Positions 26,170-35,182 of a stretch of DNA of 35,182 nt are shown piece after piece. The translations under genes and the position numbers were made by a program. Position 1 is the stretch's first letter; each line of letters begins with the position of its first letter. The stretch is taken from IMG/VR virus record IMGVR_UViG_3300036715_004472, positions 1 to 35,182 of that record. One strand, given 5' to 3'. The notes beneath the pieces were generated by a model that was given only the letters and a program-made list of their open reading frames with translations, had not been told where the DNA came from and ran no database searches. The DNA is from a virus.

Positions 26170-28815
26170 TCAAAATGGCGTGTCATCGTCTACCTCGTTG
26201 TTTCCCCCTGCGCCGGGGGCCTCGTCCTCGCCGGCGGCCTGCGCCGGCTCCTCGTCATCCAATATCCGGGGCGGCCACACCGCCGGCTGCTTGTAGCCGC
26301 GCCGGCGCGCACCCCCGCCCTCGCGGCCGTGTTCCCAGCCGTGGGCCTCCAGCCAGCCGCGTATCTGGCTCTCCAGCAGGCTGCTGCTCTTGGCCGGGTC
26401 CGCGCCCAGGGCCACCACCAGGCTGTCCAGCGTCACGAACGCAGTCAGCTGGTTCAGGCCCACCGTCGCCTTGCCCTCAGTGCCTGGCGCACCCTCACGC
26501 GTCAGCAGCTCATACAGGCGGCTCTGCACCGCCGTCTCCACCAGGCGCAGGCGCTGCTCGGGCTCGAAGAACTCTATCTCCTCCTCCGGCGTGGGCGCGT
26601 AGCGCTCCCCCTGGCGGTACAACGCCATGGCCTCGGCAAACAGCAGCGCGCGGTATTTGCGCAGCCACTCCAGCTTGATGCGCTGCTCGATCCAGATCGG
26701 CCAGAAGCGCCGGTTGCCGGTCAGGTCATACAGGTAGACCTTCTTGTTCGTGCTGCAGAAGATCACGCACTGGCGCGGGTGCGCCTGCACGAATCGCCCA
26801 TACGCACCCCGGAAGCGGTCAATGGTGGAGCTGAAGAACTGCTTCACCTGCTCGCTGTCCGCCTTGCGCAGGGCCGTCAGCTCGCTCAGCTCGTAACCCC
26901 AAAGGCCCTCCAGCTGCTCAAAGCCATCCTTGCCGTTGCCAATGTCAAAGTGCGTGTCGCTGAAGAATTCCTCGCCCACCAGGGTCTTGACGAAGGTGCT
27001 CTTGCCCACACCAGGCAGGCCCTCCAGCACCGGCGAGTAGTCAAACTTGCAGCCCGGCTTCATCACCCGCGCCACCATGCCGATCAGCAGGAAGCGGCCC
27101 ACCATCTCCAGGTAGCGCTTGCGCTTGGGCTTCAGCTTGGCCGGGTCCATGCCCAGCACGTGGATCAGCCATTTATCGATGCGCGTGGTGCCGTCATGCT
27201 CCAGCTCACGCAGCCAGTCGCGCACCGGGTGAAAGCGCCGCTCATCGGCCACCGTGTCCATGGCCTCGGCCAGGGCCGCGCGTGACGCCGCCTTGATCTT
27301 GTACGTGGTGCTCAGCCAATCACCCAGCCGCAGATCGTCGCTGTCTTTCAGCGGCCCCGCTTCCGCCCGCCAGGGCCACGGCACGATGGTGGATGGCGCA
27401 CCCGTCAGCTCGTTGAAGCCCAGGCACTCCCGCAGCAGCGGCGCCTTGCGCAGGGCGTTGAGAATCAGCTTGCGCGTGGGCTGGATCTCGTGCACGCCCT
27501 TGAGCTTCATCTCCTCGACCATGAACCGCAGCACATCGGCAAACGCATCATCGCCGTCCCCAGGTTCACCGGGGCCATCGCGATTTTTTTCCGCCAGCGC
27601 TGGCGGCTCGGGCTCGCCGTCCTTGCGGGCGCGGGCGGCCTGCAGCGGCTGCGCCTGTCCGAAGAAGGCAGCGATGCGCTGCCAGTCCCACCCATCGTGC
27701 AGGATCGCGTCCGCGCAGTCCCAGCCGTCCGGCACAGCCAGCGGCTCGGGAATGGGCAGCAGCTGCACCGTGCAGCCCTGCTCATCGCGCAACAGCGCGC
27801 CAATGCCCACCATCGCGGCCATGCCCGGTTGCTTGTCCACCGGCAGCAGCAGCTTGGTCATCTGCGCGATCTGGCGAGCCATGTCATCAGCGCAGGCCTC
27901 GCGCTCGGCCTTGGTCAGCGGCTCGCGCTTGGCGTCGCAGTCGGGCCACAGCAGCACGGTGCTGCTCTGCAGCCAGGACCACTCCGCCTTGCGCCAGGCC
28001 TTGCTGCCACCTGGCCAGCTGGCCACGATGTAGACGCCCGGTGTGTGCTCCTGCAGCAGCTGGTGCAGGATGTCGGCCTTCTTCTCCCCTTCCACCAGCA
28101 CCACGGTGGGCACCATGTCAGGAAAGGTTGACGACTGCGGCGGCGCCTTGCCGCCCGGAAAGTACAGCGGCCGCGGTTCGTCCCATTGCTTCCAGTGCCA
28201 CTTGCTGGCGCCATCGCGCCCGCTGGTGCACCAGGTGTAGGGCAGCGTCTCCTTGCCGCCCTCGCTGGTCTTGAACCGCACCACATAGCCATACAGCGCG
28301 CCGTCGATCTCATAGCGCGCCGTGTGCTCAATGTCCTCAGCCTTGCGGTTCCAGTGCTTGAAGGTGGCGGCCGGCGCGTTGTCCGGCACCGGCGTCACGG
28401 TGCGCCAGCCCTCATCGCTCTTGGGTGGTGGCGGCGGCGGCGGCGGTGGCGGCCGTGGCGCGCGCAGTTCCGGCGCCGGGCCAGGCGCGGCCACCACGCC
28501 CGCCACATCCTCCAGGCCATGCTCCCGCGCCAGCTCCACGGCGGCCTTGCCCATGGTGAGGTCGTGCACCTTCGCATACAGGCTGACCAGGTCGTTGCCC
28601 TTTTCGTCGCTGGCGAAGTCGGCCCATTTGCCGTTGGTGAGGTTGACCGAGCAGCTGCTGCCCGCCCCGCCGCTGAGCGACCCGCACACGTATTCATGCC
28701 CGCGCTGCGCACCGCCTGGCAGCCACATCGGCACCAGGGTGTGCGCCAGGGGGAGCAGCGCCGCTGCCAGTGCCGAGAAGTTGATCGGCGGCAGATGGTT
28801 GTTGCCAGTGGCCAT
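26170..28815 (-). CDS. Primase-helicase with TOPRIM-like and VirE/VapE-type ATPase domains
   Basis: An 881-residue replication protein (ATG 28813-28815, AAGGT upstream). The N-terminus (about 30-105) resembles a primase zinc-like or DUF3987-type entry (GGAQRGHEYVCGS; WADFASDEKGNDLVSLY). Ten consecutive prolines at 122-131 form a linker. A TOPRIM-like core follows (VVLVEGEKKAD at 238-248, PDCDA at 291-295). The C-terminal VirE/VapE ATPase has Walker A EGLPGVGKST at 598-607, then LEGLWGYELSEL and FRGAYGRFVQAHPRQCVIF with a following CSTNK sensor. It probably primes and unwinds phage DNA. The acidic C-terminus (DDEEPAQAAGEDE) may contact partner proteins. Good coding quality throughout. Confidence 0.9.
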   Translation of the reverse strand: MATGNNHLPPINFSALAAALLPLAHTLVPMWLPGGAQRGHEYVCGSLSGGAGSSCSVNLTNGKWADFASDEKGNDLVSLYAKVHDLTMGKAAVELAREHGLEDVAGVVAAPGPAPELRAPRPPPPPPPPPPKSDEGWRTVTPVPDNAPAATFKHWNRKAEDIEHTARYEIDGALYGYVVRFKTSEGGKETLPYTWCTSGRDGASKWHWKQWDEPRPLYFPGGKAPPQSSTFPDMVPTVVLVEGEKKADILHQLLQEHTPGVYIVASWPGGSKAWRKAEWSWLQSSTVLLWPDCDAKREPLTKAEREACADDMARQIAQMTKLLLPVDKQPGMAAMVGIGALLRDEQGCTVQLLPIPEPLAVPDGWDCADAILHDGWDWQRIAAFFGQAQPLQAARARKDGEPEPPALAEKNRDGPGEPGDGDDAFADVLRFMVEEMKLKGVHEIQPTRKLILNALRKAPLLRECLGFNELTGAPSTIVPWPWRAEAGPLKDSDDLRLGDWLSTTYKIKAASRAALAEAMDTVADERRFHPVRDWLRELEHDGTTRIDKWLIHVLGMDPAKLKPKRKRYLEMVGRFLLIGMVARVMKPGCKFDYSPVLEGLPGVGKSTFVKTLVGEEFFSDTHFDIGNGKDGFEQLEGLWGYELSELTALRKADSEQVKQFFSSTIDRFRGAYGRFVQAHPRQCVIFCSTNKKVYLYDLTGNRRFWPIWIEQRIKLEWLRKYRALLFAEAMALYRQGERYAPTPEEEIEFFEPEQRLRLVETAVQSRLYELLTREGAPGTEGKATVGLNQLTAFVTLDSLVVALGADPAKSSSLLESQIRGWLEAHGWEHGREGGGARRRGYKQPAVWPPRILDDEEPAQAAGEDEAPGAGGNNEVDDDTPF

Positions 28816-28818
28816 GCG

Positions 28819-29130
28819 CTACCTTGCCGGCCAGCCTGAAATGATGCGCTGCAGGTCCATCGCGGTGAACTCGTTCAGGTCCACGAAGGGCGCGCGGTCT
28901 GCGTCGGGGGGCGGGTCGGGCAGGTCATACACCACCTTGGGGCGGTTGCGGTCGGCCTCTTTGACCTCTTCCTTCTGCACCAGCTTGTTGGCGCGCACCA
29001 GGTTGCGCAGCTGCGCCAGTGCCATGGACTTGCCCACGTTGGCGCGCGCGGCAATCTCGGCGCCGGTGCCTGGGCCTTCGCGCTGGATGGCGCCGATCAG
29101 CGCCAGGCTGGTTTCGCCCAATGGCCTCAT
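28819..29130 (-). CDS. Small winged-helix DNA-binding protein
   Basis: A 103-residue protein from MRPLGETSLALIGAIQ (ATG 29128-29130, overlapping the upstream stop). Residues 8-60 are a clear winged helix-turn-helix: LIGAIQREGPGTGAEIAARA, then NVGKSMALAQLRNLVRANKL and the wing VQKEEVKEADRNRPKVVYDL. It may regulate its own operon or help load the primase-helicase, whose gene starts three bases after its stop. The long frame extending to 29496 is rejected in favour of this internal ATG. Confidence 0.75.
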   Translation of the reverse strand: MRPLGETSLALIGAIQREGPGTGAEIAARANVGKSMALAQLRNLVRANKLVQKEEVKEADRNRPKVVYDLPDPPPDADRAPFVDLNEFTAMDLQRIISGWPAR

Positions 29131-29471
29131 GCGCGGCGCCGCTCCTCGATCACCTGCTCCATGATGGACAGGCCCTCGCGGTACATCAGCCACTGGCTGA
29201 TGACGCGGTTGCCGCACGCGTGCTGAAACACCTGGATGTGCTCGGCCGGCAAGTTGCGCTTGCCCGGCTTGGCGCTCACGTAGTCGGTGATGTGCGCGGC
29301 ATAGAGGCCGGTCTCCTCGGCCAGCTGCGCCTGCGTAAGGCGCGGGCGCGTGCGCTGCAGCCAGCAGGTGTGCACCGCCTCGCGGTACGACTGGATGGAC
29401 TCCACCACAGTCTGAGAGAGAAAGCTGGGCCCCTTGTAGAGGGTCAGCATCGGAAGTTCGAGTTGCATCAT
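29127..29471 (-). CDS. HTH-domain protein, first gene of leftward operon
   Basis: A 114-residue protein starting at 29471 (or two codons later). Residues about 42-75 have a helix-turn-helix of the Cro/C1 type (LTQAQLAEETGLYAAHITDY, then VSAKPGKRNLP), followed by helices (HIQVFQHACGNRVISQWLM). N-terminal residues 1-25 are a short leader. It is the first gene of the leftward operon, and its upstream region carries three copies of a 10-bp repeat (29493, 29544, 29556) that may be its own binding sites. A role in replication control, like lambda cII or O-region regulators, is possible. Confidence 0.75.
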   Translation of the reverse strand: MMQLELPMLTLYKGPSFLSQTVVESIQSYREAVHTCWLQRTRPRLTQAQLAEETGLYAAHITDYVSAKPGKRNLPAEHIQVFQHACGNRVISQWLMYREGLSIMEQVIEERRRA

Positions 29472-29681
29472 TTCCAGGCACCACCTTGAAAAACACCAGT
29501 TGAGAGCCGCTAAGAGCGGGCGTTATTAATAAATTTCATCGAAACACCAGTTGCCACACCAGTTGAATGAGGGCGAAAATTTTTTTGATGCACCCCTCAC
29601 GAATCAAGAATTGGCGGACTCCCGCAATCGGTGGAAAATGCCGGCAGATCATCTCCAACACCACCACCGAAAGGGGAGCCC
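29472..29681. promoter_or_regulatory. Divergent control region with three copies of ACACCAGTTG
   Basis: Between the leftward operon (start 29471) and the rightward gene at 29682, the 10-mer ACACCAGTTG occurs at 29493-29502, 29544-29553 and 29556-29565; the last two are 12 bp apart, about one helical turn. The minus strand has an AT-rich TTTATTAAT just after them that could serve as a -10 element. A small inverted repeat CCGCT-AAG-AGCGG sits at 29507-29519. The rest is AT-richer than its surroundings. Confidence 0.6.
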
Positions 29682-29942
29682 ATGAAACAAGAACGCAAGA
29701 CGGAACTGCTGAGCCGCCTACCCATGTACGACGACCAGGGACGCGAGGTCGTGGTGCCCGTAACTGGGCAATACATGCGCCAGCAATTCCAGGACGGCAC
29801 GTGGACCGATTGGCTCTTGGAGCACATGACGTTCAGCTGTCCTCAAGGCCCGGTGAACAAGCTGGACGGCCTGGAGGGAGAGTGGTTCGAGATTGTTTCG
29901 ACGGGCACTCGGATTCGCCTTCGTCCAGCGGCACAAGCCTGA
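29682..29942 (+). CDS. Hypothetical early protein (86 aa)
   Basis: Starts MKQERKTELLSRLPMYDDQG with a strong AAGGGGAG before the ATG (29682). Beta-rich: GREVVVPVTGQYMRQQF, WTDWLLEHMTFSCPQG, then WFEIVSTGTRIRLRP. It resembles small phage proteins of unknown function with a compact fold. Its last 110 bases overlap, antisense, the end of the minus-strand gene at 29833-30144. I do not recognise the family. Confidence 0.7.
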   Translation: MKQERKTELLSRLPMYDDQGREVVVPVTGQYMRQQFQDGTWTDWLLEHMTFSCPQGPVNKLDGLEGEWFEIVSTGTRIRLRPAAQA

Positions 29943-30144
29943 ATCTCGTCACGGCCCGTGCAGCCAGGTCCCCACTGCCAGGCGGAAGGCACTTCACCAC
30001 CGTCAGCATGGGGAAGCTGCTACCTTCAATGTGCAATGTGGCCGACACAATGCGGGCAGGGTCCAGGCCAGCAGCCTTGAGAAATGGCAAGAATGCCTTA
30101 TTGACCTCGGTTGGGACCGGGCCTTTTGCCTGTTCATCAGCCAT
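29833..30144 (-). CDS. Hypothetical small protein overlapping an opposing gene
   Basis: A 103-residue frame with an excellent AAGGAG six bases before ATG (30142-30144). Residues 1-60 look genuine (NKAFLPFLKAAGLDPARIVS, ATLHIEGSSFPMLTVVKCLPP), while the last ~37 residues lie opposite the 3' end of the rightward gene and have shadow-like composition (SKQSRTTLPPGRPACSPG). The true protein may be the N-terminal part with a dispensable tail. Function unknown; it stands in a small cluster of leftward genes between 30144 and 31022. Confidence 0.6.
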   Translation of the reverse strand: MADEQAKGPVPTEVNKAFLPFLKAAGLDPARIVSATLHIEGSSFPMLTVVKCLPPGSGDLAARAVTRFRLVPLDEGESECPSKQSRTTLPPGRPACSPGLEDS

Positions 30145-30209
30145 GCGTAGCTCCTTGTGTTGCGCCGGCCTGCCCGGCGCAAAATGGATGGTTCAGGAGG
30201 CATTGATTC

Positions 30210-30506
30210 ATGACACCCGACCAGTTGCTGAGCACGCTGCACCGTCAGCGCGCGGACCTTGCAGCCATGCGTGGAGCGCTTGCCGCTCTTGCGGAGTCGC
30301 TTCCAGCAGAGCTGAAGCGCGGGTGGCATGCAACTCTGCAAGCTCGTATCGAAAGAGCCCAAGAGCAGGCATCCAGTCCTCGGCTGAACCCGGACGAACG
30401 TCAGGGCATGGAAGACCTTGTGGCAGCGCAAGAGCGCCTGCTGCGTGCGCTGGACCTGGAGCCAAAGCCGCCATCACTGGGCGTGCCTGGTGGGGGAATG
30501 CGTTAG
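30210..30506 (+). CDS. Small helical protein, paralogue of the 32681 gene
   Basis: A 98-residue protein with AGGAGG nine bases before ATG (30210). Nearly all helical: LLSTLHRQRADLAAMRGALA, AALAESLPAELKRGWHATLQ, ERQGMEDLVAAQERLLRAL. The pattern of leucines, LP, a Trp and a final helical hairpin aligns by eye with the protein at 32681-32989. The stop codon overlaps, convergently, the stop of the minus-strand gene at 30503. The competing minus frame (30208-30510) is considered a shadow. Function unknown. Confidence 0.62.
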   Translation: MTPDQLLSTLHRQRADLAAMRGALAALAESLPAELKRGWHATLQARIERAQEQASSPRLNPDERQGMEDLVAAQERLLRALDLEPKPPSLGVPGGGMR

Positions 30507-30757
30507 GCATTGGCCACCCCCTGCTGCGCGCCGGCCTGGGCCAGCTCTGGCGCCCCGTTCATCGGCAAGAAAACGAATTCAAGGGTGCTGCCCTCGGGCA
30601 TGCGGGCCAACACCTTGCGGCGTATGTCGGCCTGTTCATCAGCCGTCAATGGCAGCCTGGTGTGGATGGCCAAGCTTTCAGCGACGTGCACGCGGCCGAG
30701 CGGCATGCTGAGCAGCGGTGATCCGTCGGGCATCCTGATGACTTGCGTTTCAGCCAT
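30503..30757 (-). CDS. Small hypothetical protein coupled to the YdaS/Cro-like gene
   Basis: An 84-residue protein starting MAETQVIRMPDGSPLLSMPL (ATG 30755-30757); the ATG overlaps the stop of the regulator gene (ATGGCTGA) and the GGGGGTGG before it serves as binding site. It contains ESLAIHTRLPLTADEQADIR and VLARMPEGSTLEFVFLPMNG. The C-terminal 13 residues (LAQAGAQQGVANA) nearly repeat those of the upstream regulator (LAQSGTQQGVAHG), reflecting a DNA duplication. No known function; it should be expressed early together with the regulator. Confidence 0.65.
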   Translation of the reverse strand: MAETQVIRMPDGSPLLSMPLGRVHVAESLAIHTRLPLTADEQADIRRKVLARMPEGSTLEFVFLPMNGAPELAQAGAQQGVANA

Positions 30758-30793
30758 GCGCCACCCCCTGCTGCGTGCCGGACTGGGCCAGTT
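30514..30793 (-). repeat. Pair of 33-bp direct repeats at gene junctions
   Basis: 30514-30546 and 30761-30793 match at 30 of 33 positions (start CCACCCCCTGCTGCG, end CTGGGCCAG). Each encodes the last residues of a leftward gene plus the ribosome binding site for what follows. The copies are 247 bp apart and probably arose by duplication of a gene-end module. Confidence 0.75.
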
Positions 30794-31022
30794 GCTGTTG
30801 GTAAGAGGCCCGGAGGTAGGCGAAATCCTCCGCGCGGTCGGGCCGGAGCTGTTCACAGCGCACCTGACCGCTTGTTACCCGCTCGATGGCGATACAGTGC
30901 TCCACCGGCACCGTGCCACCGCGCGCGCGCCAGTTGGAAACGGCGGCCTGGACAACGCCCACCGCCTTTGCCAACTTCACCACGCCACCGGCGATATCAA
31001 TTGCTCGATCAAGCTCGTTCAT
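30750..31022 (-). CDS. YdaS/Cro-like transcription regulator
   Basis: A 90-residue protein from MNELDRAIDIAGGVVKLAKA (ATG 31020-31022). The N-terminal part is a YdaS/Cro-type helix-turn-helix (GGVVKLAKAVGVVQAAVSNW, then RARGGTVPVEHCIAIERVT), followed by the family's RPDRAEDFAYLR. It diverges from the repressor at 31097 over three operators, as lambda Cro does. The predicted promoter (-10 TAGAAT at 31035-31030) puts the transcript start about at the ATG, so translation may be leaderless or nearly so. It likely represses the lysogenic repressor and favours lytic growth. Confidence 0.82.
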   Translation of the reverse strand: MNELDRAIDIAGGVVKLAKAVGVVQAAVSNWRARGGTVPVEHCIAIERVTSGQVRCEQLRPDRAEDFAYLRASYQQQLAQSGTQQGVAHG

Positions 31023-31029
31023 TCGGCGC

Positions 31030-31057
31030 ATTCTAAACACGTTTGTGATTTTGTCAA
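31030..31057 (-). promoter_or_regulatory. Leftward early promoter of the YdaS/Cro-like gene (PR-like)
   Basis: Minus strand -35 TTGACA (31057-31052) and -10 TAGAAT (31035-31030), 16-bp spacer. An operator (31035-31050) fills the spacer, so bound repressor would occlude polymerase. Both hexamers are close to consensus, so this should be a strong promoter in the absence of repressor. Confidence 0.78.
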
Positions 31058-31102
31058 AACACCATCGTGATCGCTTGTTTTCTGACAATCACAAATGTGA
31101 AG
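31035..31102. promoter_or_regulatory. Three-operator switch region between repressor and Cro-like gene
   Basis: Three 16-bp sites share the core TCACNNNNGTG: 31035-31050 (AATCACAAACGTGTTT on the minus strand), 31057-31072 (GATCACGATGGTGTTT, minus) and 31087-31102 (AATCACAAATGTGAAG, plus). Centres are 22 and 30 bp apart. The third spans the GTG start of the repressor. The organisation matches OR1-3 of lambda-like switches. A weak plus-strand -10 (GACAAT 31084-31089) would give a leaderless repressor mRNA. Confidence 0.8.
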
Positions 31103-31510
31103 ACTCTCGCCGACAGGCTTAAATTCGCGCGCGAACTGCGCGGCATGTCTCAAAAGGAGCTTGCCGTCGCGTCGAAGTGCGCCCAAAGCGCCATCGGCAA
31201 TGTGGAAAGTGGCGAACGCCACACGCTGCGCAACCTGGTGATCGTTGCCAGGGCGCTGCGCATCTCAGCAGATTGGCTTTATGACGGCAAAGGCCCCAAG
31301 CCGACAAAAGACGACTGGCTTACCGGCCCGGCCCCCAGCCCGCTGATGGTCGCAGAGCGCGCAAAGGCGGACCCCTGGACCAACGAGGCCATGCTCATAT
31401 TGGGCAAGCTCAACGACCACCAGCGGGCCGCCGCTATAGCAAGGCTGCGAGAATTCGTCAGCCAGCTCGGCCCGCCCCGTGACGGCCAAACTCTACCAGT
31501 GGCCGCATAA
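31097..31510 (+). CDS. Lysogeny repressor, XRE/CI-like, without protease domain
   Basis: A 137-residue protein. I choose the GTG at 31097 (MKTLADRLKFARELRGMSQ) because it aligns with the start of CI-like repressors and falls just after a possible -10. An earlier Met at 31067 would read through operators. Residues 4-60 are an XRE helix-turn-helix (QKELAVASKCAQSAIGNVES, then GERHTLRNLVIVARALRIS, DWLYDGKG). The C-terminal part (about 75-137) is a helical segment (PWTNEAMLILGKLNDHQRAA) with no S24 Ser/Lys protease site, so induction should not depend on RecA-stimulated self-cleavage. No clear Shine-Dalgarno: leaderless translation is likely. Confidence 0.85.
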   Translation: MKTLADRLKFARELRGMSQKELAVASKCAQSAIGNVESGERHTLRNLVIVARALRISADWLYDGKGPKPTKDDWLTGPAPSPLMVAERAKADPWTNEAMLILGKLNDHQRAAAIARLREFVSQLGPPRDGQTLPVAA

Positions 31511-31641
31511 ATAGAGGGGACAGCGTGGCAACAACAAACATACCAGCCACGCGCAAGCACAATTCGATTTTGAAGGCGTTGGGAATTTTCGGCAGGCCGA
31601 GCTGGCTGAGCTATGGACTGTCCCTGCCCAAGGAGAAGCCA

Positions 31642-32286
31642 TTGAACACCATTCGGACCGCGTTAATTGCACTGTTGTGCCTTTACTCACACACCCTTCT
31701 CGCCGACCCTGCATCGAAACAAGCCGTCCCGAGCAGCCGGAAACCTGATGCCCAAGCGAAACGTGGCGCCGCATGGCCGCAGGAGCCTACGGCAGTAATC
31801 GGTGTCAAACTGGGCTTGCCCATTGAGGAAAGCAACCTTATCTCGTGCGATGTGTTGGAGAAGGACCCAACCGCTGCTGCGCGCCCATGCTTAGCCTATT
31901 TATCCCCCAATTCGCGCAAGGAAATACAGGAGCTGCGATACCACGGCATCAGCCAGGTCAGTCGAGCCACGGTGAACATGGACAACGGCATGGTGAAGGA
32001 CCTGACGCTGTCCCTTGCTTCAAAGGACTTTGACGCTATGGCCGCCATCCTTCGGGAGCGATATGGCCCACCGGCCAAAGTGACGAACAGCACCGTCACC
32101 ACCAAAACCGGCGCAAAATTTGATCAAGCGATCTTGTCCTGGAAAGGAAAGGTCAACAGCATCCAACTCGTCCAACGTGTGTACACGATCAACGATGCAG
32201 CCGTCATCTTTTACTCAAACAGGTCATTGGAGAAGAGCAAGGAAGCAGACGAACAGGCGGCGAAGGAGGCCGCAGCGAAATTCTAG
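31642..32286 (+). CDS. Secreted protein behind the repressor, candidate lysogenic-conversion gene
   Basis: A 214-residue protein. I choose the TTG at 31642 because AAGGAG stands six bases upstream and it begins an ideal signal peptide (MNTIRTALIALLCLYSHTLLA, cleavage before DP); a GTG at 31525 with GAGGGG is an alternative that adds 39 residues. The mature part is beta/alpha (VIGVKLGLPIEESNLISCDV, ATVNMDNGMVKDLTLSLAS, MAAILRERYGPPAKVTNSTV) and ends in a charged helix. It is periplasmic or surface-exposed by prediction, has no enzyme motif, and lies right after the repressor in the same direction. That suggests expression in the lysogen, e.g. for superinfection exclusion. Confidence 0.78.
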   Translation: MNTIRTALIALLCLYSHTLLADPASKQAVPSSRKPDAQAKRGAAWPQEPTAVIGVKLGLPIEESNLISCDVLEKDPTAAARPCLAYLSPNSRKEIQELRYHGISQVSRATVNMDNGMVKDLTLSLASKDFDAMAAILRERYGPPAKVTNSTVTTKTGAKFDQAILSWKGKVNSIQLVQRVYTINDAAVIFYSNRSLEKSKEADEQAAKEAAAKF

Positions 32287-32307
32287 AAAACAGCCTCGCG
32301 CCGTTTC

Positions 32308-32350
32308 AATCACAAATGTGTTGACAAGATAAATCACGTTCGTGTTTAAT
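32308..32350 (+). promoter_or_regulatory. Rightward early promoter with two repressor operators (PL-like)
   Basis: -35 TTGACA (32321-32326), 18-bp spacer, -10 TTTAAT (32345-32350). Operators AATCACAAATGTGTTG (32308-32323) and AATCACGTTCGTGTTT (32332-32347) overlap the -35 and spacer/-10. They share the core TCACNNNNGTG with the three sites at 31035-31102, so the same repressor should silence this promoter. It drives the rightward early genes from 32389 on. Confidence 0.82.
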
Positions 32351-32388
32351 TCACTCCAACCCGCCATGGTGGCGGGAAGGAGTGGAGA

Positions 32389-32937
32389 GTGTCAACACCC
32401 GTTTCCCCGGCAGCGCAACCCGCCGTTGCCCCCAGCCCGCACCCTAGCCGCAGCCAGCCGACCTGCGCGCGGTGCAAGCACGCCGTGCTCTCGCGCGCCG
32501 GCTTGCCTTCCGAGACCATCTATTGCGGCCACCCGGCCGCACCCATTGACCCGGTCAGCGGCAATCCCGCGCTGACAGCCTGCGAGGCGCGCGCACCGGG
32601 CCAGCGCAAGCCCTACCGCACCCTGGAAGACGGCCTGATTCCCGCCCTGTGCGGGCCGGAAGGCCGCTTGTTCGAGCCCATCAATCGGGCGAGCGCCCCT
32701 GCCGAATCTGCGCCACCGCCGCCGGCGCATGGTGAAGCATTTTCTCCATCCGTTGCTTTGCAGCAGACATGGATTGAAGAGATTCTGGAGCTGCACCGCC
32801 TGCAATCCACACCCGCTGATGGTTGGCTTCAAGCATTTGCCACGCATGCATCAGCGCATCGTGCGTCTCTTTGGGCAGCGCTGCGGCGATGGCTTGTATG
32901 GCCAGGTGCAGCACGAACTGCTCGGCCCGCAAGTTGA
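32389..32937 (+). CDS. Small zinc-ribbon-like early protein (3' half uncertain)
   Basis: Starts at GTG 32389 after GGAG (MSTPVSPAAQPAVAPSPHPS). Residues 26-88 hold CARC (C26, C29), CGH (C46, H48), C65 and C88, a likely metal-binding module, followed by GLIPALCGPEGRLFEPI. From about residue 98 the frame runs antisense to the gene at 32681-32989 and its composition becomes less convincing, although the frame stays open to 32937. It is the first gene behind the early promoter, so an anti-host or recombination role is possible. Function not recognised. Confidence 0.68.
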   Translation: MSTPVSPAAQPAVAPSPHPSRSQPTCARCKHAVLSRAGLPSETIYCGHPAAPIDPVSGNPALTACEARAPGQRKPYRTLEDGLIPALCGPEGRLFEPINRASAPAESAPPPPAHGEAFSPSVALQQTWIEEILELHRLQSTPADGWLQAFATHASAHRASLWAALRRWLVWPGAARTARPAS

Positions 32938-32989
32938 GCAGCAGCCGCTTGACCTCTGCGTCACTGACCTTCTCTCCCGACTTTCCCAT
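32681..32989 (-). CDS. Small helical protein antisense to the early gene
   Basis: Start MGKSGEKVSDAEVKRLLLNL (ATG 32987-32989, GAGG eight bases upstream; two GTGs slightly upstream are alternatives). Mostly helical (VLHLAIQAIAAALPKETHDA, LMHAWQMLEANHQRVW, LQSMSAAKQRMEKMLHHA), and it aligns by eye with the rightward protein at 30210-30506, making them paralogues. It overlaps the 3' half of the rightward gene by 257 bases, so at least one reading may be truncated in vivo. Function unknown. Confidence 0.6.
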   Translation of the reverse strand: MGKSGEKVSDAEVKRLLLNLRAEQFVLHLAIQAIAAALPKETHDALMHAWQMLEANHQRVWIAGGAAPESLQSMSAAKQRMEKMLHHAPAAVAQIRQGRSPD

Positions 32990-33023
32990 GAGCACCACCT
33001 CGTTTCAAAAGGAGTTATCGTAG

Positions 33024-33686
33024 ATGACCGAAGCATCTGCAACCATCGCTCCTGCGGCACCCGTGCCGCAGCCCATCACCCATCAATCGGCCACACAGGC
33101 CTTTGAGGACTGGGAGAACAAATACCGCGCCGAGCCGGCCACCTTCCTGACCGTGGAAGAGTGCGCCGCCATGGACGGTGGTGCCGGCATGAAGGCCGTG
33201 CGCTTATCGCAGCTGCGTGAAGCGCAGCAGTGCGCGCACCGCGTCCTGCACAGCAGCCGTGTCCCTGTAGCGCACCTGGCCAACCGAGTCATGCACGTGT
33301 TGTCCGCCATCGGTGCATGTCTTGTAGCGGGCCAAGGCCTCAGTGAAGCTGCGCCGCTGCCACCAGTGCAGCCGCCGCTGCAGACGGTCTATGTCGGCAG
33401 CACTCACCCTGTTGGCGTAGGGCGAAGCAGCCTCCAGCTCAGCCAGCCAAACGGCACGGATGGGTTCGGCTACTTCATTGAATTCCTTGCGCATGTCCCG
33501 CCAGAGTGCCATGCGGTGGCCTATATACATGCCCAGGAAAAACGCGAGGGCCGACCAACTTGCGGTGGCAAAGAACTGCTCAGCCAAGGTGAACTCCTCC
33601 TGAATGCGTTTCTGGTGCTGGGTTTGCCGCTGGTGGGCGGGCTCATTGTAGGCATGGCGCCGCTGGCGCGCGGGATAAAGCCATGA
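33024..33686 (+). CDS. Early-region protein with C-terminal membrane segment; middle part uncertain
   Basis: AAGGAG nine bases before ATG (33024). The first ~58 residues look real (ATQAFEDWENKYRAEPATFL, TVEECAAMDGGAGMKAV). Residues about 61-188 are opposite the convincing minus-strand gene 33204-33587. The C-terminus contains LLLNAFLVLGLPLVGGLIVG, a transmembrane helix, and the stop overlaps the next gene's ATG as ATGA. Either one real long gene tolerates an antisense gene, or two shorter genes became joined. Function unknown. Confidence 0.5.
   Translation: MTEASATIAPAAPVPQPITHQSATQAFEDWENKYRAEPATFLTVEECAAMDGGAGMKAVRLSQLREAQQCAHRVLHSSRVPVAHLANRVMHVLSAIGACLVAGQGLSEAAPLPPVQPPLQTVYVGSTHPVGVGRSSLQLSQPNGTDGFGYFIEFLAHVPPECHAVAYIHAQEKREGRPTCGGKELLSQGELLLNAFLVLGLPLVGGLIVGMAPLARGIKP
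33204..33587 (-). CDS. Small membrane protein antisense within the early operon
   Basis: A 127-residue frame beginning at TTG (33585-33587) with a very strong GGAGGAG six bases upstream. N-terminal helix WSALAFFLGMYIGHRMALW spans the membrane; the remainder is a soluble helical domain (DMRKEFNEVAEPIRAVWLAE, RVSAADIDRLQRRLHWWQRR) ending in DAVRALLRFTQLR. Residue composition and start signals favour this frame over the opposing one. It could be expressed from a promoter upstream at about 33600-33680 on the minus strand. Function unknown. Confidence 0.6.
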   Translation of the reverse strand: MAEQFFATASWSALAFFLGMYIGHRMALWRDMRKEFNEVAEPIRAVWLAELEAASPYANRVSAADIDRLQRRLHWWQRRSFTEALARYKTCTDGGQHVHDSVGQVRYRDTAAVQDAVRALLRFTQLR

Positions 33687-33802
33687 GCGCCATCCTCAAG
33701 CGCTGGCTCAGCGCCGCCTGCATCGCCCTGCTGATCAGCCTCACCTGGCACCTGGACGAGCCCGCCCAGCTGCAAACGTCTGCACCGGAGGCCCGCCCAT
33801 GA
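33683..33802 (+). CDS. 39-residue single-span membrane peptide
   Basis: ATG at 33683 overlapping the upstream stop as ATGA and its own stop overlapping the next ATG, so translation is coupled at both ends. The peptide MSAILKRWLSAACIALLISL continues TWHLDEPAQLQTSAPEARP: one transmembrane helix followed by an acidic/Pro tail. No separate Shine-Dalgarno. Such short membrane peptides are usual in early regions, function unknown. Confidence 0.6.
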   Translation: MSAILKRWLSAACIALLISLTWHLDEPAQLQTSAPEARP

Positions 33803-33990
33803 ACGCCCCCGGCGACTTCCACCGCCAGTGCGCCACTGGCGAAGATTTCTGGCTGCCGGACGACGACCAACAACACCCGCTCACCCTCACCTGGTGGGAG
33901 AAGCTGCTGCTGCTGGCCGCGCTGTTCCTCAGCGTGTCGCTGGTGGCTGGCGCGGCCGGCTACGTGTGCGCAAGGCTGAGCCAGGCATGA
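33799..33990 (+). CDS. 63-residue membrane protein
   Basis: ATG at 33799, coupled to the preceding gene. N-terminal soluble part (HRQCATGEDFWLPDDDQQHP) followed by a transmembrane helix (WWEKLLLLAALFLSVSLVAG) near residues 32-55. Ends by overlapping the next ATG. Function unknown; likely works with its neighbour at the membrane. Confidence 0.65.
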   Translation: MNAPGDFHRQCATGEDFWLPDDDQQHPLTLTWWEKLLLLAALFLSVSLVAGAAGYVCARLSQA

Positions 33991-34373
33991 GCGCCCAGCT
34001 GGCCCAGGCTCCGCACGTGGAGCACTTCTACACCGGTCGCCTGGTCACCCCAGCCACGCTGTGCTGGTTGCCGCATGACCACGGCAGCAGCGTGCCCGGC
34101 GTCAAGTTCACCATGCAGGTGGGCCGGTATGGCCACGTGGACGTGGAGGTGCCCTTTGCCGAGGGCGCCGACGCCGCCGCCCGCGCCTTCGCACAGGGTT
34201 TGCACGTGGGCGACCCGTTCACCGCCCGCGTGTACATCCGCCACGTGCACCTATGCCTGCACAAGGTGCCGGCGCGCAACTACACCGGCGACCCCGCCGC
34301 GCCCGCCCCGGGCGACCTGACGCCGGCGTCTGCCCAGGCGCCGGCCGAGGCCGATCTTTTCTCGCAAGTCTGA
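33987..34373 (+). CDS. Hypothetical early protein (128 aa)
   Basis: ATG at 33987 in a four-base overlap. The core is beta-rich (GVKFTMQVGRYGHVDVEVPF, then GDPFTARVYIRHVHLCLHKV) with a Pro/Ala-rich tail (GDPAAPAPGDLTPASAQAPA), a layout that recalls small OB-fold single-strand-binding or related proteins: a barrel then a disordered acidic end (EADLFSQV). That resemblance is by shape only; it lies directly before a nucleotide kinase gene, which would suit a replication role. Confidence 0.65.
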   Translation: MSAQLAQAPHVEHFYTGRLVTPATLCWLPHDHGSSVPGVKFTMQVGRYGHVDVEVPFAEGADAAARAFAQGLHVGDPFTARVYIRHVHLCLHKVPARNYTGDPAAPAPGDLTPASAQAPAEADLFSQV

Positions 34374-34390
34374 ACACAGGAGCACTACCC

Positions 34391-35182
34391 ATGAACATCA
34401 CCGCCCACCGCTACCCCTTTGTCATCGGCCTCACCGGCCCCAAAGGCAGCGGCAAAGACACTGTGGCCGATATCCTGGTGGCCGACCACGGCTACCGCAA
34501 GGTGGCCTTTGCCGACGCGCTGCGCGCCGAAGTCTCCAAGGCCTGGGGCCTGCCCGAGACCATGCTGACCGAGCCGGCCACCAAAGAGCACCCCATCAGC
34601 GCCCTGGCGTTTGAGCTGTGCCTGGACAGCGCCTTCATCGACCTCGTGTGGCGCGTGATGAACCACACCCGCGAGCAGATGGCCGCGCCGCGCTCGCCAC
34701 GCGAGATCATGCAGCTGTGGGGCACTGAGTTTCGCCGCGCGCAAGACGGCAACTACTGGGTCAAGCGCGTTGGCGAGTTGATCATCAACACCGACTTCGA
34801 CTACGAGGATGCCACCATCAACGACGGCAGCTCACAACCCGTCCTCGCCCGCCGTGTCGTCGGCATTCCGCGTTGGGTCATCACCGACTGCCGATTTTTC
34901 AACGAAGTGAAGCTCGTGGACAAGGCGAAAGGTCTGCTGTGGAAAGTCAGCCGCCCCGGCCACGCCGTCCCACCCGGTTCGCACGTGAGCGAAACCACCG
35001 GCATCGAGTTTCAGCCTGACGAGACGCTGGACAACAGCGGCAGCCTGCCCGCCCTGCGCGACCAGGTCAACGCCGCGCTGAACCGGCACTTCCACCGCCA
35101 GCAGCAGCAAGGCCTGGACATGGACCGCGTGCACCCGCTGCGCGACGGCGTGGTGCAGGGCGAAGTGCGCGTGGTGGGCTGA
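34391..35182 (+). CDS. Deoxynucleoside monophosphate kinase
   Basis: A 263-residue kinase (ATG 34391, CAGGAG eight bases upstream) ending at the window edge. P-loop GLTGPKGSGKDTVADIL at 13-29 with K20 and T24. Downstream elements characteristic of phage dNMP kinases: YRKVAFADALRAEVSKAWGL, SPREIMQLWGTEFRRAQDGN, WVITDCRFFNEVKLVDKAKG and the GSHVSETTGIEF loop. It should phosphorylate dGMP/dTMP and possibly modified dCMP to diphosphates, raising DNA precursor supply for phage replication. The gene is complete. Expressed from the early rightward promoter. Confidence 0.86.
   Translation: MNITAHRYPFVIGLTGPKGSGKDTVADILVADHGYRKVAFADALRAEVSKAWGLPETMLTEPATKEHPISALAFELCLDSAFIDLVWRVMNHTREQMAAPRSPREIMQLWGTEFRRAQDGNYWVKRVGELIINTDFDYEDATINDGSSQPVLARRVVGIPRWVITDCRFFNEVKLVDKAKGLLWKVSRPGHAVPPGSHVSETTGIEFQPDETLDNSGSLPALRDQVNAALNRHFHRQQQQGLDMDRVHPLRDGVVQGEVRVVG

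Follow-up and report, generated by a model that had tools for sequence, protein, structure and literature searches.

A probable temperate-phage immunity switch with five operators, a short repressor and a hairpin in the PL leader

The DNA analyzed here, referred to as the window, is a stretch of 35,182 nucleotides that corresponds to positions 1 to 35,182 of the IMG/VR virus record IMGVR_UViG_3300036715_004472. Towards its right end lie two divergent genes encoding a Cro-like protein and a CI-like repressor, three operators (OR1-OR3) where the two genes meet, and two further operators (OL1 and OL2) on the promoter PL, which is found downstream of cI on the same strand (Table 1). It is proposed that these elements form the immunity switch of a temperate phage, in which a short repressor that probably does not cleave itself controls two early promoters from five operators, and PL is insulated from the repressor operon.

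Table 1. Features of the putative switch in the window. Bits and ranks are those of the weight-matrix scan of the whole window; HTH, helix-turn-helix; SD, Shine-Dalgarno sequence.
Feature	Position	Strand	Details
Cro-like gene	30750-31022	-	90 aa; ATG at 31022; Pfam YdaS_toxin, E 4.6e-23; P22_Cro, 47 bits against a cut-off of 30
PR promoter	31030-31057	-	TTGACA 31057-31052, N16, TAGAAT 31035-31030; 11/12 consensus positions
OR1	31035-31050		AAACACGTTTGTGATT; within PR spacer; 25.5 bits, rank 1
OR2	31057-31072		AAACACCATCGTGATC; 18.7 bits, rank 5
Candidate -10 of repressor promoter	31084-31089	+	GACAAT, assigned by eye
OR3	31087-31102		AATCACAAATGTGAAG; right-hand GTG is the putative repressor start codon; 21.6 bits, rank 4
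Repressor gene, CI-like	31097-31510	+	137 aa; 434-type HTH and small helical tail; Pfam HTH_3, E 7e-11
Gene in rex-like slot	31642-32286	+	214 aa; TTG start with AAGGAG upstream; signal-peptide-like N-terminus
OL1	32308-32323		AATCACAAATGTGTTG; overlaps PL -35; 24.0 bits, rank 3
PL promoter	32321-32350	+	TTGACA 32321-32326, N18, TTTAAT 32345-32350
OL2	32332-32347		AATCACGTTCGTGTTT; in PL spacer and over start of -10; 25.5 bits, rank 2
PL leader hairpin	32350-32386	+	anti-SD CACTCC 32352-32357 pairs with GGAGTG 32379-32384; inner stem 32360-32376
First PL gene	32389-32937	+	182 aa; GTG start; Cys-rich N-terminal half; SD GGAG 32379-32382

Operators and geometry of the locus

The five matching sites and the two strong promoters recognized by the initial annotation are confirmed. 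The operators are 16 bp long and of the form AATCACN4GTGATT, or close to it, with AATCAC as the half-site; its ATCAC part is identical to the outer portion of lambda's TATCACCGC. The bare pattern TCACN4GTG is unspecific, with 13 matches in the window against 5.9 expected and seven of them elsewhere in GC-rich sequence, and was rejected as evidence on its own; three such matches within 70 bp were found in 0 of 300 simulated windows. A weight matrix built without the window, from 187 operators found in its relatives, was scored over the whole 35 kb and places the five sites at ranks 1-5 (18.7-25.5 bits); the sixth match lies elsewhere and reaches 10.9 bits. An operator does lie in the spacer of each promoter, as had been noted, and it also touches the hexamers (31035 in PR, 32345-32347 in PL). 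Of the three sites thought to lie between the divergent genes, two do so; the third is not strictly intergenic, because the repressor GTG at 31097-31099 forms its right-hand GTG.

The two nearest relatives (L002 and L003) were found by repressor protein similarity only, and both have three sites at cro-cI and two more ~1.8-2 kb downstream, with spacings near-identical to those of the window and different intervening genes. A DNA-only scan of viral contigs with the distal PL promoter pattern, in which an OL1-OL2 spacing of 20-30 was allowed, gave 68 viral stretches, and ~59 of these lie next to relatives of cI/cro in the same geometry (53 with such a relative in the fetched stretch itself and six with one in a second stretch of the same contig); the suggestion that the motif is a useful key to relatives is borne out by this result. 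The start-to-start spacing of OL1 and OL2 is 24 bp in the window and at 49 of the 65 distinct PL sites, and 23-25 bp at 62 of the 65, and the distance from the cI start to PL ranges from 422 to 2166 bp among relatives (median 1133). Relative to the start of the repressor, OR1, OR2 and OR3 stand near -60, -37 and -7 in 26 members, which are non-redundant and include the window; the remaining members keep OR1 and OR2, have a shifted or degenerate third site and mostly start with ATG. Repressors that share the operator core are mostly only 22-63% identical to that of the window, so that the motif alone cannot sort immunity groups, the second use foreseen for it; at most two specificity subclasses are distinguished.

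Other searches mark the borders of this group. No relatives were found by a scan of viral contigs with the Cro protein. A scan of genome contigs with a three-repressor alignment returned only Acinetobacter-type and Nitrosospira repressors, which have other recognition helices and other cro-cI repeats (TTAGG-type where readable) and were used as negative controls. Six loci (L087-L092) with Acinetobacter-type and related prophage repressors, mostly with KPPSVSDW recognition helices, carry TTAGG-type repeats between cro and cI, and these repeats are a separate operator family. A sample of 399 genomes of one order yielded a single match, and no relative of the repressor was present in the stretch retrieved for it; no clustered motif was detected in the named phages with the most similar repressor N-domains (AsXd-1, a Helicobacter prophage, AbIPP1, PHL101 and 434).

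The repressor and its recognition of the sites

The AlphaFold model of the repressor (mean confidence, pLDDT, 84) ends in a small helical C-terminal tail. Foldseek aligns it to 434 Cro with a template-modelling score of 0.97 normalized to the target, and 434 Cro and 434 repressor are the best hits of a profile search against PDB. Whole-length Foldseek matches (DdrO and others) have a root-mean-square deviation above 10 and were disregarded outside the HTH. No S24 peptidase domain (PF00717) was found in the window repressor by Pfam; in the operator group this domain is present in 15 of 47 members and missing from 32. Since repressors with and without the peptidase occur in one operator group, operator specificity and induction chemistry are separable in it. 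The description of the switch as lambda-like accordingly applies to its layout and to the DNA-binding fold of its repressor, and not to the repressor C-terminus. RecA-stimulated self-cleavage of the window repressor is unlikely because the protein has no S24 peptidase, and we can only guess, by analogy with the Gifsy and Qin prophages, where induction proceeds through an antirepressor (PMC3121763, PMC10448788), that it might do so here.

Which protein reads the sites is indicated by co-variation. All seven repressors with an RGYG loop after the recognition helix are associated with CACT..AGTG-type operators, at PL and at OR where this is visible; such operators go with about 1 of 45 other repressors, nearly all of which are paired with a purine at the operator position concerned (Fisher p 6e-8, without correction for common descent). 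The members of this subclass are L010, L014, L025, L027, L058, L060 and L061, and its change of a single base pair is possibly a natural switch of specificity. Where the recognition helix of a related HTH repressor differs, the operators are different too and the CACN4GTG cluster is absent. The co-variation of loop and operator base, and the other operators found with other recognition helices, argue that both clusters are read by the repressor rather than by a host factor. That the repressor controls all five sites is a well-supported prediction from these comparisons, and the OR/OL-type plan with the repressor acting at both clusters, as first put forward, gains further from the conserved geometry.

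The sites are palindromic and lie on promoters, as would also be the case if a host regulator of, for example, the CRP/FNR type bound them in place of the phage repressor. We consider this highly improbable: the CRP site is TGTGA-N6-TCACA, whereas the half-sites here face outward (TCAC..GTGA), the high-scoring sites of the window are only the 3+2 set at cI/cro and PL, and the operator subclass follows the repressor loop. It is also unlikely that the operators serve mainly the Cro-like protein, or that Cro and the repressor compete at all five, as was first proposed. A P22_Cro/YdaS-type gene does adjoin the sites, and the Cro recognition helices of the RGYG subclass are distinct as well (QSV[VI]SNW in 6/6); however, at least two very different Cro types (ASAPSMW and CSQS.I.A..) are found beside the same operators, whereas the repressor N-domain is constant, and in phiKO2, the closest studied switch, Cro binds OR3 only (PMC4997575).

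The repressor start codon and the PL leader

The GTG of OR3 is in frame with cI in all 26 relatives that have the third site, and in 25 of them no SD-like motif precedes it; in L012 the cI alignment begins seven codons after the GTG, the position of which is unchanged. The conserved GACAATCAC ahead of this GTG, which is kept in the nearest relatives, resembles a -10 element and has the spacing that a leaderless transcript would require. The repressor mRNA probably lacks a leader and would start with the right-hand GTG of OR3. On the other strand the cro ATG follows the PR -10 box by ~8 nt, a distance that is similarly short in most relatives, and the cro mRNA is expected to be leaderless or nearly so. 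Such mRNAs are plausible here because rapid amplification of cDNA ends (RACE) showed leaderless cI and cro mRNAs in PY54 (PMC4488713). A literature search of open-access full texts for a GTG start combined with OR3 returned nothing relevant. The frames that are open from OR2 to OR3 in 25 of the 26 relatives were considered as a sign of an upstream repressor start and set aside as weak, as they consist mostly of fixed operator sequence and a stop occurs in one relative.

Transcription reading through cI would continue into the PL operon, which follows on the same strand, so that PL has to be insulated from it. In the window the PL leader folds into a hairpin of -25.8 kcal/mol (z -4.5), and the unpaired probability of the SD of the first PL gene is 0.00 if the RNA is a read-through product and 0.28 if it starts at 32358. 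The same tendency is seen in relatives: the 50 nt after the PL -10 have a mean z of -2.2 relative to shuffles, with 29 of 54 below -2, vs -0.1 to -0.3 (8/162 below -2) for control windows 60, 120 and 180 nt downstream. The position of the hairpin is conserved in many relatives and its sequence is not. Its 3' arm carries the SD of the first gene, in 25 of 33 cases three or more bases of this SD are paired to the first 16 nt, and a CACTCC-like stretch occupies the first 7-8 nt after the -10, that is, before the expected start site. Over 31 loci the median unpaired probability of the SD is 0.003 in read-through RNA, 0.57 in PL-started RNA and 0.34 after shuffling of the upstream sequence (Wilcoxon p 1.5e-8 and 7e-4). 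In addition, a terminator-like hairpin stands between cI and PL at 32 of 47 loci, compared with 3 of 47 after shuffling, usually 16-80 nt before PL; the window has none between cI and PL. The predicted foldings indicate that the leader hairpin probably blocks translation of read-through RNA from the co-directional repressor operon, and suggest that the group insulates PL from such read-through, the hairpin being one means of doing so.

Searches of Pfam, PHROGs and NCBIfam gave no family match for the first PL gene, and Rfam gave none for 30900-32600; none of these searches was aimed at an N antiterminator or nut sites. Further along in the rightward (PL) direction lies a deoxynucleoside monophosphate kinase gene (34253-35182), the DNA of which is similar to that of two named phages, Variovorax phage VarioGold and Arthrobacter phage BaileyBlu; no other part of 28800-35182 shows such similarity.

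The slot between the repressor and PL, which is the position of rex in lambda and of hex in 434, is filled in the window by a gene without a Pfam match, the longer open reading frame of which matches phrog_16676 in its C-terminal half; a lysogenic-conversion or exclusion protein is possible. The slot genes of relatives are unrelated and encode lipoprotein-like, SNase-like, zinc-ribbon membrane, LuxR-like and other proteins. Nearly the same protein of ~205 aa occupies the slots of L003 (5514-6131) and L060, which belong to different operator subclasses, suggesting cargo exchange between switches.

Model of the switch and comparison with known systems

We propose that the repressor would bind the five operators through their common half-site. 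Occupation of OR1 and OR2 would turn off PR and with it cro and the leftward early genes, and occupation of OL1 and OL2 would turn off PL, 1.2 kb away, and the rightward early genes. Because OR3 overlaps the start of the repressor gene itself, high levels of repressor, or Cro, would probably shut off cI. The genes between cI and PL would be cargo expressed in lysogeny, like rex and hex. PL may be insulated in many relatives by the terminator-like hairpin just before it, and in many relatives and this phage by the leader hairpin, which would leave read-through RNA translationally silent and allow PL-initiated RNA to be translated. Induction would not be driven by RecA-dependent self-cleavage and may involve an antirepressor. 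We assign a probability of about 0.8 to the locus being the immunity switch of a temperate phage with a short non-self-cleaving repressor, five operators and an insulated PL. A more specific combination is put forward tentatively, at slightly less than even odds: that temperate phages of this widespread group insulate the PL operon by means of the bases between the PL -10 and the start site, which act as the anti-SD strand, so that only transcripts begun at PL are translatable, that a half-site of OR3 doubles as the leaderless GTG start, and that cleavable and non-cleavable repressors share the same operators.

Several points weigh against this proposal. Sites, geometry, conservation, co-variation, the in-frame GTG and the hairpins were computed, and it is from these that we infer binding, transcription starts and translation in this phage, as well as repression, insulation, leaderless transcripts and the route of induction. 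A search by operator pattern favours relatives that have the pattern, a bias that does not apply to L002 and L003, and the relatives are not independent lineages. In-frame GTG or ATG triplets are also present upstream in OR2, so that the start at GTG 31097 is an assignment of ours. A PL start 3-4 nt earlier would put part of the anti-SD arm into PL RNA, and the accessibility of the window SD in RNA from the PL start is modest (0.28). As to the induction route, the window contains no recognizable antirepressor, and LexA boxes are not above chance in it (they are below the chance expectation), with a consensus that may not be the host's and with the flanks of the window missing. The leader hairpin could have another role, as an mRNA-stabilizing 5' stem, a target of an RNA-binding protein or a put-like antitermination element. 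Lambda-type early operons use leader RNA elements, and the inner stem is retained in the PL RNA of many relatives; on the other hand, relatives share no common sequence or loop, Rfam gives no match, and the arm that pairs has specific complementarity to the SD and precedes the expected start, which makes this alternative somewhat doubtful. That the locus is a non-functional switch in a decayed prophage remnant is improbable: no integrase was found among the open reading frames searched, and the record may be a fragment, but the frames of the repressor, Cro, terminase, portal, major head protein and primase/helicase are intact, as are the five operators on two strong promoters.

The proposed switch combines the layout and repressor fold of 434 and lambda with the operator number, operator size and non-cleavable repressor of N15 and phiKO2, and differs from each. 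Like 434 (record OL657226) and lambda, it has divergent cI and cro genes, three OR sites, an OL that lies past cI at a distance of ~1.1 kb, an extra gene between cI and OL, and a repressor N-domain of the 434 fold. Unlike the lambdoid phages lambda, 434 and P22, it has two rather than three sites in the second cluster; in contrast to 434 and lambda, its operators are of 16 bp and its repressor lacks the S24 peptidase. In 434, OR3 is upstream of a start codon preceded by an SD, whereas OR3 of the window contains the repressor start codon, and the 434 stretch has no CACN4GTG sites. The immB regions of N15, phiKO2 and PY54 likewise have five 16-bp operators, three OR and two OL, and their repressor CB is without self-cleavage residues (PMC4997575), as the window repressor is without a self-cleavage domain. 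Their operators, however, are T-A-N10-T-A rather than CACN4GTG, and their OL controls repA; these three phages are linear plasmid prophages, of which no sign was seen here, although no search for a protelomerase was made. Short repressors without a peptidase are also known from GfoR/GtgR of Gifsy and from DicA (135 aa, compared with 137 aa and an HTH only here), and DicA is paired with a divergent Cro-like protein and represses another promoter close by (PMC3121763, PMC10448788). The NCBIfam DicA match of the window repressor is weak (25.5 bits against a cut-off of 101), and the LexA-box and antirepressor results for the window, with the limits given above, show no counterpart of the Gifsy and DicA systems. 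For the hairpin, the analogous cases are e, soc and I-TevI of T4, in which the ribosome-binding site is hidden in transcripts from upstream promoters (early and middle for I-TevI) and free in those from their own late promoters (PMC2988022). In T4, a lytic phage, early and middle promoters are set against late ones, whereas here, in a temperate phage, the two sides would be PL and the cI operon of the lysogenic state. The new element, as judged from open-access full texts, is a PL leader hairpin whose anti-SD arm follows the -10 box and precedes the expected start site.

With one short DNA pattern, a large set of temperate-phage switches of fixed geometry can be recognized, which opens operator prediction, immunity prediction and tests of the repressor-operator code for dozens of uncultured phages. 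That interchangeable repressor C-termini are combined with shared operators suggests separate evolution of operator specificity and of the induction route, SOS-cleavable or not. To the question of how a lysogen avoids translating lytic genes from repressor read-through, the PL hairpin gives a concrete answer that can be tested.

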